Part shown: positions 9,089 to 52,479 of the stretch, piece after piece
Layout: the number at the start of each line of letters is the position of its first letter
Numbering within the stretch: the first letter of the stretch is position 1
Assembly: GCF_014203325.1 (NCBI RefSeq)
Contig: NZ_JACHIV010000001.1
Location: 372,001-436,000, forward strand
Direction: 5' to 3'
Source of the DNA: Saccharopolyspora gloriosae
Lineage (GTDB): Bacteria > Actinomycetota > Actinomycetes > Mycobacteriales > Pseudonocardiaceae
DNA: 64,000 bases
The notes under the pieces: model-generated
Databases searched by the model: none
The model's input: only the letters and a program-made list of their open reading frames with translations
Told to the model about the DNA's origin: nothing
Program-made: the position numbers and the translations under genes

Positions 9089-9125
9089 GAGCTCGTCGTA
9101 CCAGGTTCGCCCGCGGGGACCGTTG

Positions 9126-9196
9126 CTCCGCCGCCAGGACTCGAACCTGGACCATCAGAACCAAAATCTGAGGTGCTGCCTTTACACCACGGCGGA
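9126..9196 (-). tRNA. tRNA-Gln (anticodon TTG)
   Basis: A 71-nt cloverleaf on the minus strand. Acceptor stem TCCGCCG/CGGCGGA, D-arm GTGTAAAGGCAGCAC, anticodon arm TCAGA-TTTTGGT-TCTGA with anticodon TTG, T-arm CCAGG-TTCGAGT-CCTGG. CCA is not encoded. No duplicated tRNA end or integrase was seen nearby. Confidence 0.96.
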
Positions 9197-44698: not shown

Positions 44699-46021
44699 AT
44701 GGCTGGTAAATCCGAACCCACCCGGATTCTCATCCTCGGCGGCGGCTATGTAGGCATGTACACGGCACTTCAGCTTCAGTCGAAGCTGGGGCGTCGCGAA
44801 GCCTCCGTCACCGTGGTCGACCCTCAGCCGCACATGACCTACCAGCCCTTCCTTCCGGAAGCGGCAGCGGGCTCGGTCGAGCCTCGCCACGTGGTAGCGC
44901 CACTGCGACGAGTCCTGAAGCGGTGCCATGTGATCACCGCCAGTGTCACCGAGATCAAGCACGCCGATCAGGTCGTGACGATCGAGAACCCGCAGACAGG
45001 CCCCGAAGAGCTTGCCTACGACGTCCTCGTCGTGGCGCTCGGTTCGGTGTCCCGACTTCTGCCCATCCCCGGCCTGGCGGAACAAGGCATCAGCCTCAAG
45101 ACCGTCGGTGAGGCCATCTACCTGCGCAACCACGTGCTGGCGAAGATGGACGCCGCGGCCAACACCTCCGACGAGGAGCTGCGCAAGCGGCTGCTCACCT
45201 TCACCTTCGTCGGCGGCGGATTCGCCGGCGCCGAGGCGTTGGCGGAGCTGGAGGACATGGCCCGCTACGCCACCCGCTACTACGAGTCCATCTCGCCGGA
45301 AGACATGCGGTGGGTCCTCGTCGAGGCCGCCGGGCGCGTGATGCCCGAGGTCAGCGAGAAGATGGGCGTCTACGTCGTTAAGGCCCTGGAAGAGCGCGGC
45401 ATTCAGGTCTACCTGAACACCTTCCTGAAGTCCGTCGAGGGCGGGCACGCCATGCTCTCCGACGGGACCGAGTTCGACACCGACACCTTGGTGTGGAACG
45501 CGGGCGTCAAGGCGAACCCGGTGCTCAAGAACACCGACCTGCCGCTCGACGAGCGCGGCCGGATCAAGTCCACCTCGCACCTCCAGGTCGAAGGCCTGCC
45601 GGGCGTGTGGGCCGCCGGGGACTGCTCCGCGGTCCCGGACCTGTCGAAGATCGACGACGACCCGAACGCGACCTGCGCCCCGTCCGCGCAGCACGCGGTG
45701 CGCCAGGCCAACCAGCTCGGCAAGAACCTGCTGGCGAGCCTGCGCAACAAGCCCACCAAGGAGTACCGCCACGCCTACGCCGGTTCGGTGGCGGGCCTCG
45801 GGCTCTACAAGGGCGTCGCCGACGTCTACGGCTTCAAGGCCAAGGGCTTCATCGCGTGGTTCATGCACCGCACGTACCACGTGAGCCGGATGCCCACGTT
45901 CAACCGCAAGATGCGGATCGTCATCGACTGGACGCTGGCGTTCCTGTTCAAGCGGGAAGCCGTGTCGATGGGTCAGATCCAGAACCCGAAGGCCGACTTC
46001 GAGCGGGCCGCTGCGAGCTGA
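44699..46021 (+). CDS. ndh: Type II NADH dehydrogenase (non-proton-pumping)
   Basis: A 440-residue FAD enzyme that transfers electrons from NADH to menaquinone at the inner face of the membrane. Two dinucleotide-binding motifs are present: ILILGGGYVGMYTAL for FAD and FTFVGGGFAGAEALAEL for NADH. WAAGDCSAVPD binds the FAD ribityl. The C-terminus has the amphipathic membrane-binding region (YGFKAKGFIAWFMHRTYHV). Length fits Ndh of mycobacteria. The start is ATG 44699; the ribosome binding site is weak. A strong terminator follows. Confidence 0.94.
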   Translation: MAGKSEPTRILILGGGYVGMYTALQLQSKLGRREASVTVVDPQPHMTYQPFLPEAAAGSVEPRHVVAPLRRVLKRCHVITASVTEIKHADQVVTIENPQTGPEELAYDVLVVALGSVSRLLPIPGLAEQGISLKTVGEAIYLRNHVLAKMDAAANTSDEELRKRLLTFTFVGGGFAGAEALAELEDMARYATRYYESISPEDMRWVLVEAAGRVMPEVSEKMGVYVVKALEERGIQVYLNTFLKSVEGGHAMLSDGTEFDTDTLVWNAGVKANPVLKNTDLPLDERGRIKSTSHLQVEGLPGVWAAGDCSAVPDLSKIDDDPNATCAPSAQHAVRQANQLGKNLLASLRNKPTKEYRHAYAGSVAGLGLYKGVADVYGFKAKGFIAWFMHRTYHVSRMPTFNRKMRIVIDWTLAFLFKREAVSMGQIQNPKADFERAAAS

Positions 46022-46379: not shown

Positions 46380-47519
46380 ATGACCGAGGGGGCGGACGAC
46401 TTCGCGCACCCGTTCGGCCCCATCCCCGGCCCGTCCACCGCTGACTTCCGGCCCGGCCCGCTGCTGCTGCAGGGGCAGGACTACTTCTTCCGCTCCGACG
46501 ACACCAGCCTCGACTTCCAGGAACGCGTGCACAGCGCGGACCTGGTCAACGACGGCGACGGTGACCCGATCCCGTGCGTGCTGGTGCTGGCGCGGGCCGC
46601 GGACATGGAGATGAACGAGCTGTCGCTCGCCCTGGCCGAGCGCGGCATCCGGATGGTCCGCATCGACGCCGACCGCTGCCTGGACATCGCGCTCACCGTC
46701 TACACCGACACCCCGCTGATCGAGTTCGAGCGCTGGCTGCTGCGGCCCGTCGTGGTGTGGCGGCGGCACTTCGACATCACCGCGCTGCCGGTCGACCCGA
46801 CGACGGTGCACGGTGCCTACGTCCGCGAGCAGTGGCGCGCGGTGTCGAACTGGCTGTCCTGCCGGGCCGACTGGGAGCAGATCAATCCGGTGCGCTCCAG
46901 CTCGCACCTGGATCGGCTCACGCAGCTGCGCGACGCCACCGCGTTCGGTTTCCTGGTGCCGCGGACCGCGGTGACGACCCTGCCCGGGCGCAGCCGGCCG
47001 GGCGGTGGCCGGTGCATCGTCAAGACCGCCGGACACCACATGCTGGAGCCCGAACCCGGCGCGCTGCGCGGCCTTTTCCCGCGCCCGCTGGACATCCGCC
47101 ACTCCGCCGAGGCCAGGGAGCCCGCGCCGGTGCTGGTGCAGCAGTTCGTGGACTCCGAGCACGAGATCCGCGCGTTCGTGGTGGGCGACGAGGTCATCGG
47201 CTACCGGGTGGACAAGCTCGACCCGGCGCAGCTGTGGGTGGATCCGGATTCGGTCGTGGTGGAGCGGATCGAACTGCCCTCCGGCCTGGTGACGCGGCTG
47301 CTGGCGCTGTGCCGGTTCTGGCGGCTGCACGTGGCCGCGTTCGACCTGCTGGCCACCGGTTCGGAGCACGTGTTCCTGGAGGTCAACGTCAACTGCGATT
47401 GGCGCTGGTTCGAGCACCGGGCCCAGGACGACGCGGTCTCCACCGCGGTGCACGCCTGGGTCGGGGAGCGGTTCGAGCACCTCGCCGCGTCCGCTCCGGC
47501 GCCGCGGTGGGACCGATGA
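46380..47519 (+). CDS. ATP-grasp ligase of the graspetide (MvdC/MvdD, TgmB) type
   Basis: A 379-residue enzyme expected to activate a carboxylate as acyl-phosphate and form an ester or amide within a peptide. After a preATP-grasp domain (LALAERGIRMVRIDADRC; PVVVWRRHFD, matching the vWyRRP motif of this family) come INPVRSSSHLDRLTQLRDAT and FGFLVPRTAVTT, the nucleotide-binding lysine in GRCIVKTAGHH, QQFVDSEHEIRAFVV, and the metal-binding end HVAAFDLL with VFLEVNVNCDWRWFE. About 60 residues at the N-terminus (with AHPFGPIPGP) are an extension not typical of the family. The start is ATG 46380 after GGAGGACTGGGGCT. No transporter, N-acetyltransferase or methyltransferase lies next to it. Confidence 0.82.
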   Translation: MTEGADDFAHPFGPIPGPSTADFRPGPLLLQGQDYFFRSDDTSLDFQERVHSADLVNDGDGDPIPCVLVLARAADMEMNELSLALAERGIRMVRIDADRCLDIALTVYTDTPLIEFERWLLRPVVVWRRHFDITALPVDPTTVHGAYVREQWRAVSNWLSCRADWEQINPVRSSSHLDRLTQLRDATAFGFLVPRTAVTTLPGRSRPGGGRCIVKTAGHHMLEPEPGALRGLFPRPLDIRHSAEAREPAPVLVQQFVDSEHEIRAFVVGDEVIGYRVDKLDPAQLWVDPDSVVVERIELPSGLVTRLLALCRFWRLHVAAFDLLATGSEHVFLEVNVNCDWRWFEHRAQDDAVSTAVHAWVGERFEHLAASAPAPRWDR

Positions 47520-47696: not shown

Positions 47697-47773
47697 GCCC
47701 CCGTAGCCCAATTGGCAGAGGCAGACGACTTAAACTCGTCAGAGTGTCGGTTCGATCCCGACCGGGGGCACCA
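47697..47773 (+). tRNA. tRNA with anticodon TAA (nominally Leu), class I fold, CCA encoded
   Basis: Acceptor GCCCCCG (47697-47703) pairs with CGGGGGC (47763-47769), discriminator A, then CCA. The anticodon arm GACGA-CTTAAAC-TCGTC gives TAA, reading UUA. T-arm GTCGG-TTCGATC-CCGAC. The variable region is only 5 nt (AGAGT), whereas bacterial tRNA-Leu normally has a long variable arm. The charging identity is therefore uncertain. It lies 177 nt after the ATP-grasp gene. Confidence 0.88.
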
Positions 47774-48381: not shown

Positions 48382-51300
48382 ATGACGGACCGGAAAGCGG
48401 GAACTTCGGCGGCGGGCTCCGGCACTCGTGCGCTGTTCGCGGAACGGTTCGCCCTGCTCTACGTCACGGCCGGAGATCCACCGCTGAAGCGGGTCGCCGA
48501 CGCCGTGGAACGGGTCCGGCGGCTCGACGAGCGGGGCAGGCCGATCCGTTCGACGGCCCAGCGGATCAGCGACTGGCGCCGGGGACGCAACGTGCCCGCC
48601 AGGTTCGCGGCCCTGTCGGTGGTGCTGGAGATCCTGATCGGCGAGGCGCGGAAGAACCAGCCGCAGCCCCCGGTGGACGGACTCTACGACCTGGCGGTGT
48701 GGCGGGCCCGGTGGGAGGAAGCGCTGACCAGCCCGCTGGCCGCGCCGGAGGCGCCACCTGCGGCCGAAACCGGTGAGACGAACGGGACTCGGCCGGACGG
48801 CGGCCTGCCGACCGACGAAGGGCTCTGCCCGTACCGCGGGCTGGCCGCGTTCCACGAGGGCGACTCCGGATGGTTCTTCGGCCGGGAACGCGCCACCACC
48901 ACGCTGGTGGAGCGGCTCGCCACCGCGGCCGACGACGGCGGCATCACGATGCTCGTCGGCGCTTCGGGAGCGGGGAAGTCCTCGCTGCTGGGGGCGGGCC
49001 TGCTCCCAGCGCTGACCGGTGGGGCGCTGGCGGACCAGGGGTCCTCCTCGTGGCCGGTGCGGACGATGACGCCGGGCGAGGATCCGCTGCGCTCGCTGAC
49101 CGAGCTGATCCCCGAGCTCAACGAGGTCCTGGCTGCAGCGGAGCGTGACGACGCGGAATCGGACGACGACGACTCCGACGCGGAATTCCGGTTCGCGGAG
49201 TCGGTGCGCGACGCGGTCGCCGGGCACGTGCGGGACGCGGTCGGTGACGAGGCCCGGCTGGTCCTGGTGGTGGACCAGTTCGAGGAGACGTTCACGGTGT
49301 GCCGGGACGAGCACCGGCGAGCCCTGTTCGTGCGGGTCCTGCAGGCCTGCTGCACCACGGGATTCGCGGGCGGCACCTCGCCGGGGCTGGTGGTGCTGGG
49401 GTTGCGCGCCGACTTCTACGCGCGGTGCCTGGACTTCCCCGAGCTCGCGGAAGCGCTGCAGCACCGGCAGATGGTGCTCGGCGCGATGACCGTCGCCGAA
49501 CTGCGCAAAGCCATCACGGGCCCCGCGAAGGCCACCGGGCTGCAGATCGAACCGGGCCTGGTGGACGTGCTGCTGCGCGACCTCGGGGTGAGCGTGGGCC
49601 GCGCCTACGGCAAGCCGTCGCAGCGGGCGTACGACGCGGGGGCGCTGCCGCTGCTCTCACACGCGCTGCTGGTGACCTGGCAGCGCAGGCAGAGCGGCAA
49701 GCTCACCATCGCCGGGTACCGCGCGGCGGGCGGCATCCAAGGTGCGGTGGCCGCCACCGCGGAACGGGCGTGGGCGGAGCTCGCCGAGGACGGGCAGGCC
49801 GCGGCGCGGCAGGTGCTGCTGCGGCTGGTGCACGTCGGCGAGGACACCCAGGACACCCGTAGGCGCGCGACGTACGCGGAGATCGTCGAGCACGCCGAGA
49901 ACCGCGAAGCGGCCCGGCAGGCGCTCAACGTGCTGACGGCGGCGCGGCTGGTGACGCTGGACTCCGAATCGGCCGAGATCAGCCACGAGGCGCTGCTGTA
50001 CGCGTGGCCCCGGTTGCGCGGCTGGATCGACCAGGACCGCGCGGGGAACCTGGCGCGGCAGCGGCTGGAACGCGACGCGGAAGCGTGGCGCCAGGAAGAT
50101 CGGGACGTCTCGCTGCTCTACCGCGGGGCGCGGCTGGAAACCGCCCGGCACTGGGCGGCGCAGGTGGATTCGGCGGAGCTCTCGGCGGTCAGCCACGAGT
50201 TCCTCGCCGCCTCGCTGCGGCACCTGCGCCGGACGGGCTGGTTCCGGCGGGCCACGGCGGCGGCGGTGTGCGTGTTCGCCGCGGTGGCCGCGGTGGCGGC
50301 GGTGCTGGCGGTCCGCGAGCGCGACGACGCCGAGTTCCGCCAGGTGCTCGCGCAGGCCGACCGGTTACAACCGGTCGATCCCTCCGCGGCGGCGAAGCTG
50401 GACCTGGTGGCCAAGCGGCTCCGGCCGGACGACCCGGCGGTGGACACCCGCCTGCTGTCCACCCAGAACTCCGCGCTGGGCACGCCGCTGCACGGGCACC
50501 AGAGCTCGATCTACCTGACCACGTTCAGCCCGGACGGCCGGACGCTCGTGACCGCCGGCTACGACCGGACCGTGCGGCTGTGGGACGTCACCGACCGGAA
50601 CCGGCCGAAGGCCCTGGGCGAGCCGCTGCGGGACTTCGGCAGCTGGGTGACGTCGGCCGTGTTCAGCCCGGACGGGCGGACGCTGGCGGCGGCGGGCGAC
50701 GACCACCGCGTCCGCCTCTACGACGTGGCCGATCCCGCTCGCCCGAAGCCGCTCGGAGCCCCGCTGAGCGCCGACGACGGCACGATCTACCTGATCGAGT
50801 TCAGCCCGGACGGGCGCACCCTGGCCACGGCGAACGAGAACAAGACCGCGCGGTTGTGGAACGTCGCCGACCCGGCCCACCCCGCACCGCTGGGCGGCCC
50901 GCTGACGGGGCACACCGCGCAGGTGCGGACCTTGGCCTACAGCCCGGACGGGCGGACGCTGGCGACCAGCGGTGACGACCGGACCATCCGGCTGTGGAAC
51001 GTGGCCGACCCGGCTCGGCCGGTGCCGATCGGGGCGCCGCTGGAAGGGCACACCGAAGGCATGCACTCGGTGGCGTTCAGCCCGGACGGGCGGACGCTGG
51101 CCTCCGGCAGCGTCGACAAGACGATCCGGCTGTGGGACGTGCACGACCCGGGCGACGTGCGCCAGCTCGGGCCCGCCCTCATCGGGCACGACGCGCCGGT
51201 GTGGTCGGTGAAGTTCAGCCCGGACGGGCGGACGCTGGCCTCCGGCAGCGCGGACAGCTCGGCGTTGCTGTGGAACGTGACCGACCCGTCGAACGCGACG

Positions 51301-52479
51301 CAGATCGGGCAGAGCCTCAGCGCGGGCAGCAGCACGGTGTTCGCCGTCGGCTTCAGCCCGGACGGGCGCACGCTGGCCACCGGCGGCGACGACGGGGCAG
51401 TGCGGTTGTGGTCGGTGCCGGAGCAGGTCCTCGCCGGGCACAGCTCGAGCGTGAACGACGCGGTGTACCGCCCGGACGGCAAGGTCCTCATCACCGCGAG
51501 CGAAGACCGCACGGTGCAGGTGTGGGACACGACGAACCCGCGGCTGCCGCGTCCGCTGGGCGCTCCGCTGACGGTCTACTCCGGCCCGGTCGGTTCGGTG
51601 TACGCGGCGGCGTTCAGCCCGGACGGGCAGGTGCTGGCGACCGGCGGCGGAGCCGGGACGGTGCGGTTGTGGGACATGCGCGATCCGGCGGCGCCGAAAC
51701 CGCTCGGCGCCCCGCTGGAGGTCGGCACCCGGTACATGGGGGAGGTGGCGTTCAGCCCGGACGGGCGGACGCTGGTCACCGGCAACGACGACCTCAGCGC
51801 CCAGCTGTGGAACGTCGAGGACCCGGCGCACCCGGTGCGGGTCGGGACTCCGCTGCTCGGGCACCGCGGCTACATCAACAGCGCCCGGTTCAGCCCGGAC
51901 GGGCGGCTGCTGGCGACCGCCAGCAGCGACGGCACCGTCCGGTTGTGGAACGTCGCCGACCGGGAGCACCCCGCGCTCGTGGGGCGGCCGTGGGACATGG
52001 ACGACTCGGCGACGTACTCCGCGGTGTTCAGCCCGGACGGGCGGACCCTCGCCACCACCGGTGGGGACAAGGCGGTGCGGCTGTGGAACATCGAGAACCC
52101 GGCCGCACCGGAAGAGCTCGGATCGCCGCTGCTCGGGCACTCCCAGAACGTCAAGTCGGCCGAGTTCAGCCCGGACGGCAAGACCCTGGCGACCGGTAGC
52201 GAGGACCGCACCGTCCGGTTGTGGAACGTCGAGGACCCCGAGCACGCCGAGCCGATCGGCATCTCGCTCAGCGCGCACCGCGCGGCGGTGCATTCGGTGG
52301 CGTTCAGCCCGAACGGCGGGTTCGTGGCGTCCGCCAGCGGCGACAACACCGCCTACCTGTGGGACCTCGACGTCGACCGGGCCGTGGAGCGGATCTGCGA
52401 CACCACGCGGGGTGTGCTGACGCGCGCCCAGTGGGAGCAGATGATCCCGCAGGTACCGTACGCACCGCCGTGCGAGTGA
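48382..52479 (+). CDS. nSTAND1 NTPase with HTH-like N-terminus and 14 WD40 repeats
   Basis: A 1365-residue multidomain protein. Residues 1-100 form an HTH-like domain (TAQRISDWRRGRNVPARFAAL). The nSTAND signature CPYRGLAAFHEGDSGWFFGRE starts at about 150, with Walker A GASGAGKSS at about 195 and Walker B LVLVVDQFEE at about 300. A winged-helix/helical region follows with ISHEALLYAWPRLRGWID, then one membrane helix at about 622-648 (AAAVCVFAAVAAVAAVLAV). The C-terminus has 14 WD40 repeats (FSPDGRTLA...VRLWNV), enough for two seven-bladed propellers. STAND ATPases act as ligand-triggered switches in signalling or defence. The start is ATG with GGAGGAGG upstream. TTA codon at 50365-50367. Confidence 0.92.
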   Translation: MTDRKAGTSAAGSGTRALFAERFALLYVTAGDPPLKRVADAVERVRRLDERGRPIRSTAQRISDWRRGRNVPARFAALSVVLEILIGEARKNQPQPPVDGLYDLAVWRARWEEALTSPLAAPEAPPAAETGETNGTRPDGGLPTDEGLCPYRGLAAFHEGDSGWFFGRERATTTLVERLATAADDGGITMLVGASGAGKSSLLGAGLLPALTGGALADQGSSSWPVRTMTPGEDPLRSLTELIPELNEVLAAAERDDAESDDDDSDAEFRFAESVRDAVAGHVRDAVGDEARLVLVVDQFEETFTVCRDEHRRALFVRVLQACCTTGFAGGTSPGLVVLGLRADFYARCLDFPELAEALQHRQMVLGAMTVAELRKAITGPAKATGLQIEPGLVDVLLRDLGVSVGRAYGKPSQRAYDAGALPLLSHALLVTWQRRQSGKLTIAGYRAAGGIQGAVAATAERAWAELAEDGQAAARQVLLRLVHVGEDTQDTRRRATYAEIVEHAENREAARQALNVLTAARLVTLDSESAEISHEALLYAWPRLRGWIDQDRAGNLARQRLERDAEAWRQEDRDVSLLYRGARLETARHWAAQVDSAELSAVSHEFLAASLRHLRRTGWFRRATAAAVCVFAAVAAVAAVLAVRERDDAEFRQVLAQADRLQPVDPSAAAKLDLVAKRLRPDDPAVDTRLLSTQNSALGTPLHGHQSSIYLTTFSPDGRTLVTAGYDRTVRLWDVTDRNRPKALGEPLRDFGSWVTSAVFSPDGRTLAAAGDDHRVRLYDVADPARPKPLGAPLSADDGTIYLIEFSPDGRTLATANENKTARLWNVADPAHPAPLGGPLTGHTAQVRTLAYSPDGRTLATSGDDRTIRLWNVADPARPVPIGAPLEGHTEGMHSVAFSPDGRTLASGSVDKTIRLWDVHDPGDVRQLGPALIGHDAPVWSVKFSPDGRTLASGSADSSALLWNVTDPSNATQIGQSLSAGSSTVFAVGFSPDGRTLATGGDDGAVRLWSVPEQVLAGHSSSVNDAVYRPDGKVLITASEDRTVQVWDTTNPRLPRPLGAPLTVYSGPVGSVYAAAFSPDGQVLATGGGAGTVRLWDMRDPAAPKPLGAPLEVGTRYMGEVAFSPDGRTLVTGNDDLSAQLWNVEDPAHPVRVGTPLLGHRGYINSARFSPDGRLLATASSDGTVRLWNVADREHPALVGRPWDMDDSATYSAVFSPDGRTLATTGGDKAVRLWNIENPAAPEELGSPLLGHSQNVKSAEFSPDGKTLATGSEDRTVRLWNVEDPEHAEPIGISLSAHRAAVHSVAFSPNGGFVASASGDNTAYLWDLDVDRAVERICDTTRGVLTRAQWEQMIPQVPYAPPCE

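Follow-up and report, generated by a model that had tools for sequence, protein, structure and literature searches.

Background

Excerpts from two reviews describe leucine tRNA as a class II molecule with a long variable arm and mention organelles as the exception (PMC9976931, PMC7609411), and an excerpt from a tRNA-seq paper places the serine, leucine and tyrosine tRNAs of bacteria in type II (PMC6297222). The terms "actinobacteri", "mycobacteri" and "streptomyces" have zero occurrences in the main text of either review, and no title devoted to class I tRNALeu in actinobacteria was found by a literature search with most subscription journals and bioRxiv outside its scope. According to an excerpt of PMC9976931, the long arm is dispensable for the leucyl-tRNA synthetase (LeuRS) of E. 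coli, whose recognition of tRNALeu depends on A73, the Levitt pair A15-U48, G18G19 and A20a. The same excerpt describes the human mitochondrial tRNALeu(UUR), which is without a long arm and is charged by its LeuRS, with A73 and A14 being of importance; that tRNA is organellar and has a floppy fold, whereas the tRNA reported here is a normal bacterial tRNA. A tRNA gene cluster of Mycobacterium carries a tRNALeu(TAG) with a short variable loop (PMC6582537), which resembles the present tRNA in combining a leucine anticodon with a short variable loop, but which is described as a copy borne on the cluster beside an isoacceptor whose larger loop is normal, whereas here the class I form is the only UAA tRNA found. 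For M. tuberculosis, tRNALeu-2, -3 and -5 are named as long-variable-loop tRNAs in an excerpt of PMC11541572, which suggests that the remaining leucine tRNAs of this species are short-looped.

The tRNA gene reported here lies in a window of 64,000 nucleotides, the whole stretch of DNA that was analysed (G000:C1:372001-436000 of the 6.83-Mb chromosome of Saccharopolyspora gloriosae). It is almost certainly the genome's UUA-reading leucine tRNA in class I form, one of a short-loop set (UAA, CAA and UAG) found in many lineages of the Actinomycetota in which the CAG and GAG tRNAs are as a rule long-armed and the genetic code is standard. The bldA tRNALeu(UAA) of Streptomyces, to which it is alike in being the UUA-reading leucine tRNA of an actinobacterium, is a class II tRNA.

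Features of the tRNA gene and its surroundings

A tRNA-Leu(taa) was called by ARAGORN at exactly 47697-47773 on the forward strand, and the Rfam model RF00005 matched positions 47697-47770 with a score of 60.3 bits (gathering score, 29; E 1.5e-10). The fold comprises an acceptor stem of 7 bp, a D stem of 3 bp, an anticodon stem of 5 bp and a T stem of 5 bp, with A73 as discriminator (47770, forward strand) and an encoded CCA. The complete cloverleaf, encoded CCA, A discriminator and 5-nt variable loop described in an earlier note on this DNA were thus confirmed by ARAGORN, Rfam and the fold. The D arm (47706-47722, forward strand; GCCCAATT-GGCAGAGGC) has a 3-bp stem, A14, A15, G18G19, CAGA and a non-canonical 13/22 combination (C.A), features that are the mark common to the three class I leucine tRNAs of the genome. 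The anticodon TAA (positions 34-36 of the tRNA; 47731-47733, forward strand) is given by the sequence and by ARAGORN, which reports the anticodon at position 35, and such an anticodon reads UUA, plus UUG by wobble. The variable loop, AGAGT (47741-47745, forward strand), ends in G47-U48, and U48 is expected to pair with A15 as the Levitt pair. As this loop is only 5 nt long, the tRNA is not a class II tRNALeu; the long arm is missing, and the leucine anticodon, A73, A15-U48, G18G19 and A20a expected of a leucine acceptor are all present.

Compared with bacterial class II tRNALeu (that of E. coli and the genome's own CAG and GAG tRNAs), the tRNA shares A73, A15-U48, G18G19 followed by CAGA, a 3-bp D stem with a non-canonical 13/22 combination, and G-U just 5' of the T stem. 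It differs in being without the long arm, in having C13 instead of G13 and one more base in the D loop, and in a D stem of GCC/GGC against GCG/CGC in the class II form.

The gene is flanked by a RimK-like ATP-grasp ORF (46380-47519), whose Pfam match is just below the cut-off, and by an nSTAND1/WD40 ORF (48382-52479). The latter, downstream of the tRNA on the forward strand, encodes an nSTAND1 NTPase with WD40 repeats of 1365 aa. The sole other tRNA found within the window by ARAGORN and Rfam is a tRNA-Gln(TTG) at 9125-9196 on the reverse strand. Promoter and terminator scans around the tRNA gene found none, a result of little weight for an actinobacterium.

Leucine tRNA complement and identity elements

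RF00005 gave 50 matches in the genome, and ARAGORN, run on stretches covering all 50, gave 48 distinct tRNAs, five of which are leucine tRNAs (UAA, CAA, UAG, CAG and GAG). The UAA, CAA and UAG tRNAs each have a 5-nt variable loop, and the CAG and GAG tRNAs have loops of 15 nt and 18 nt, respectively. The UAA tRNA is present in one copy, and a second UAA, CAA or UAG tRNA was not found among the 48; the class II tRNA-Leu(TAA) that the earlier note had suggested looking for is therefore not among the tRNAs found in this genome. Because only short-loop UAA, CAA and UAG tRNAs were found, tRNAs of this type are taken to read UUA, UUG and CUA in this genome.

Within the genome, the combination of A73, A15, U48 and GGCAGA with a 3-bp D stem occurs only in the five leucine tRNAs. 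A wider identity survey covered 330 distinct tRNAs, taken from the window and from loci no longer than 10 kb. The full identity set (A73, A15-U48, G18G19 and A20a) was carried by 143 of the 147 distinct class I UAA tRNAs, a figure in which the conservation of A20a, like that of GGCAGAGG, is overstated, since GCAGA or GGCAGAGG was fixed by the retrieval patterns for most of the 147. Only A15, U48 and A73 are therefore independent evidence; A73 is present in 147/147 and A15:U48 in 143/147. Variable loops ending in G-U, as in class II UAA tRNAs, were found in 134/147. The full set was also carried by 13 of 14 class I leucine tRNAs with other anticodons and by all nine class II leucine tRNAs, and by none of the 15 serine and tyrosine tRNAs. 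Three class I UAA tRNAs are without U48 (L042, L096 and L196); L196 has G15 together with C48, a compensatory change of the Levitt pair. Another of the exceptions, L209, probably reflects a spurious second ARAGORN call.

The short variable loop had led to the proposal in the earlier note that either the LeuRS here tolerates a class I tRNA or the tRNA carries another amino acid, with UUA reassigned in this genome. The class I shape, atypical for a bacterial leucine tRNA, speaks for reassignment; against it, the full leucine identity set was absent from 145/145 tRNAs for amino acids other than leucine, serine and tyrosine (one of these with a 25-nt loop), and with the codon alignments and synthetase described below this makes another amino acid at UUA an unsupported and extremely improbable reading.

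Distribution in related genomes

Five genomes of the same genus were searched, and the tRNA was identical in two (one being G001) and near-identical in three; this conservation is far beyond chance. The identical tRNA is present on a contig of Saccharopolyspora sp. NFXS83. For the surveys of the order and phylum, the class was assigned by a pattern across the D loop, anticodon and T loop, a tRNA-like match of 41-42 nt being taken as class I and one of 47-54 nt as class II. The pattern requires GCAGA, so that leucine tRNAs with other D loops escape it. Of the 101 genomes of the order, 69 gave a class I match for UAA, 16 a class II match and 16 no match. For CAA, 68 genomes had a class I and 13 a class II tRNA, two of them having both, and 22 gave no match; for UAG the numbers with class I, class II and no match were 40, 19 and 42, respectively. 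CAG and GAG gave a match in 99 of the 101. With matches unlike leucine tRNA set aside, at least seven short CAG or GAG leucine-tRNA-like matches were seen in at least five genomes (G047, G063, G071, G080 and G089), and each of those listed is accompanied in its genome by a class II tRNA with that anticodon. The extra class I CAG, GAG or CAA tRNAs beside class II ones lie at G047:C1:8928991-8929988, G071:C2:494653 and C3:2395-2525, G080:C8:81532-81747, G063:C4:585977 and G089:C57:2525; some are close together, which suggests tRNA clusters.

Across 149 genomes of the phylum, the UAA tRNA was class I in 28 and class II in 36, with no tRNA-like match in 85 (69 rows in all, the remaining five being chance-like). 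The short form was found at no fewer than 119 loci in public genome records, with Mycobacterium, Nocardia, Gordonia, Corynebacterium, Nocardioides, Microbacterium, Arthrobacter and Streptosporangium among the matches listed. Also among the matches listed, at least five short-form records come from other phyla (Planctomycetota, Rokuibacteriota, Chloroflexaceae, Deltaproteobacteria and Cylindrospermum). In Mycolicibacter sp. MYC123 and Mycolicibacterium sediminis, the UAA and CAA tRNAs belong to class I and the CAG and GAG tRNAs to class II. A class I tRNALeu is unusual against the textbook and ordinary within its phylum. An exception this wide would seem worth building into tRNA isotype models and annotation pipelines.

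In 20 of 29 3-kb loci of relatives, one of two upstream genes was found near the UAA tRNA, the RimK-like ORF in 12 and an oxidoreductase ORF (in the window at 44699-46021) in eight others, and this retention of an upstream gene points to vertical descent. It bears on the suggestion that the gene is a defunct copy or belongs to a mobile element while a class II UAA tRNA elsewhere does the work. Such a suggestion draws on class I-size leucine tRNAs in dense arrays of other bacteria (L158, L144, L219 and L214), and is opposed by the single UAA anticodon among the 48 distinct tRNAs, by an intact tRNA conserved across the order and by the upstream gene in the 20 loci; it is hardly credible beside the reading as the working leucine tRNA for UUA. 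The arrays themselves pack 21-27 predicted genes into 8 kb or less; one array is from a genome of Cylindrospermum, one from a MAG of the Chloroflexaceae and the other two from further records. In L158, the leucine anticodons UAA, CAA, UAG, CAG and GAG are all on tRNAs of 74-78 nt, and in L144 the UAA and CAA tRNAs are short and the GAG and CAG tRNAs long.

Decoding of UUA, UUG and CUA

The meaning of the codons was examined in IMCC26103, a low-GC relative, by alignment of E. coli K-12 ORFs from nine 49-50-kb stretches with 0.80 Mb of its genome, with ORFs over rRNA and overlapping matches removed and an E-value limit of 1e-15. This genome gave 38 RF00005 matches, one of them unread (73 nt, too short for class II), and has two class I UAA tRNAs, the only ones with this anticodon that were found, one GAG and one UAG, with no CAA or CAG tRNA found by the pattern. 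Its UAA genes lie at G278:C1:76655-76727 and 89582-89654; in the first, the acceptor stem contains a mismatch and the D stem is altered.

In the IMCC26103 alignments, UUA stood opposite leucine in 278/618 columns (45.0 %), followed by isoleucine and valine at 10.2 % each, and UUG in 238/517 (46.0 %). The leucine share was 45.9 % for CUG, 50.8 % for CUC, 51.8 % for CUU and 46.9 % for CUA, and 49.5 % (1019/2059) for the pooled CUN codons, above the 45.0 % of UUA. In conserved context the share for UUA was 51.9 % (70/135), the lowest of the six leucine codons, with methionine next at 12.6 %, and those for UUG and the CUN codons were 55.9 % and 54.4-66.9 %, respectively. For the six valine, isoleucine, methionine and phenylalanine codons listed, the leucine share was at most 24.2 % (ATA) and otherwise at most 16.9 %; at ATA leucine (30) and isoleucine (29) were level among 124 columns. 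The alignments make a strong case that UUA corresponds to leucine in this relative, and the 45.0 % over 618 columns weighs against a reassigned UUA.

For the window genome, the same comparison with E. coli gave leucine in 97/208 columns for UUG (46.6 %), 44.8 % for CUG and 44.4 % for CUC, and in conserved context 23/44 (52.3 %), 62.0 % and 58.1 %, respectively. The rare codons supplied two columns for UUA (A and M; leucine 0/2) and six for CUA (I, I, I, A, H and F; leucine 0/6); the absence of leucine speaks for reassignment, but on too few columns. More sites came from a mixed-partner comparison with other actinobacterial loci, IMCC26103 and E. coli at an identity of at least 35 %, in which each site was weighted once and first codons were dropped. 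Leucine was the top residue for UUG, CUA, UUA, CUG and CUC, with shares of 56.5 % for UUG on 597 sites, 59.0 % for CUG and 57.5 % for CUC, and of 50.5 % for CUA on 31 sites and 48.8 % for UUA on nine, many of them with a single partner; the last two figures count against a reassignment. As judged from these alignments, there is a strong case for UUG as leucine in the window genome, and UUA and CUA lean weakly the same way on few sites.

Leucyl-tRNA synthetase

TIGR00396 matches were present in 41 of 41 genomes of the order, 40 of them above the cut-off. Among the matches listed for the window genome, one LeuRS frame is above the cut-off, and the weaker ones below it are taken for related synthetases. 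The LeuRS (L252, 978 aa) is 36 % identical to that of E. coli over a 973-column alignment that includes the C-terminal domain and leaves a 47-residue gap in the E. coli protein. Its solved relatives (24 sequences, E up to 1e-30) are leucyl-tRNA or aminoacyl-tRNA synthetases by name, and the comparison suggests nothing pointing to an altered specificity. One canonical LeuRS is a further argument against another amino acid at UUA.

LeuRS profile matches in the order (for example L252 and L232) break either near profile position 142 or around 568-604, the latter presumably the leucine-specific domain; the break near 142 is an insertion of about 50 residues in the window genome. The form of the break was considered as a cause of class I acceptance and rejected, because both forms co-occur with class I UAA tRNAs: the window genome has the early-break form and G041, G043, G044 and G051 the other, and all have class I UAA tRNAs.

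Of the two possibilities raised for this tRNA, acceptance of a class I tRNA by the LeuRS is the one that fits, given the identity elements kept and the correspondence of UUA to leucine in IMCC26103, and the tRNA very probably receives leucine from the ordinary LeuRS. The single LeuRS would recognise it through A73 and the elbow (A15-U48, G18G19, A20a and contacts between the D and T loops); by analogy with what is reported for E. coli LeuRS it would not need the variable arm, and the ribosome would then insert leucine at UUA. Nature thus seems to confirm that bacterial LeuRS relies on A73 and the elbow and not on the arm.

Codon usage and comparison with bldA

Codons were counted in the homology-supported parts of 417 ORFs (137,557 codons), which contain 15 TTA, 47 CTA, 18 ATA and 836 TTG. 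Relative to positional base composition, the deficit is roughly tenfold for TTA, roughly eightfold for CTA and roughly sixteenfold for ATA. The rarity of TTA noted earlier thus holds, but these counts do not show a special set of TTA codons, since ATA is under-used more strongly and TTA is therefore not singled out.

These counts also bear on a role like that of bldA, in which TTA would be kept rare so that the supply of the tRNA switches on a set of genes. The tRNA is the sole UUA reader found in the genome, and the tenfold deficit of TTA (15/137,557) would suit such a role. The comparable or stronger deficits of CTA and ATA show that UUA is not avoided more than other rare codons, and the structures differ: in the Streptomyces-like genomes G156 and G257 (f18, taken to be Streptomyces by the bldA sequence) the UAA tRNA is class II with a long arm, against the 5-nt loop here. 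A UAA pattern match was not found in the third Streptomyces-like genome, G236. With neither the class II structure nor a TTA-specific avoidance in place, a regulatory role of this kind appears improbable.

Origin of the class I leucine tRNAs

A tree of 85 tRNAs did not decide on the origin: the class I leucine tRNAs share their node, of support 0.498, with many other tRNAs. In two genera the UAA and CAA tRNAs of class I have a likeness of 79-83 % and stand side by side in the tree listing, and the class I UAG tRNA is closest to class II leucine tRNAs and to tRNAHis (69 % each). One conceivable scheme, offered tentatively and more doubtful than not, is that many Actinomycetota split their leucine codons, reading CUC and CUG with long-arm tRNAs and UUA, UUG and often CUA with short-arm ones, and that the UAA/CAA set may have arisen from a class I tRNA that gained the leucine elbow rather than from a class II tRNA that lost its arm. 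The split might persist because enzymes, toxins or regulators that recognise the variable arm miss the short-arm tRNAs, or because it allows tuning of UUR apart from CUN. The distribution also raises the question of why the compact form serves the rarer leucine codons but not CUG and CUC. A 40-nt pattern match at G115:C68:44740-44779 resembles part of a class I tRNA, with a loop that can be read as the anticodon TCA.
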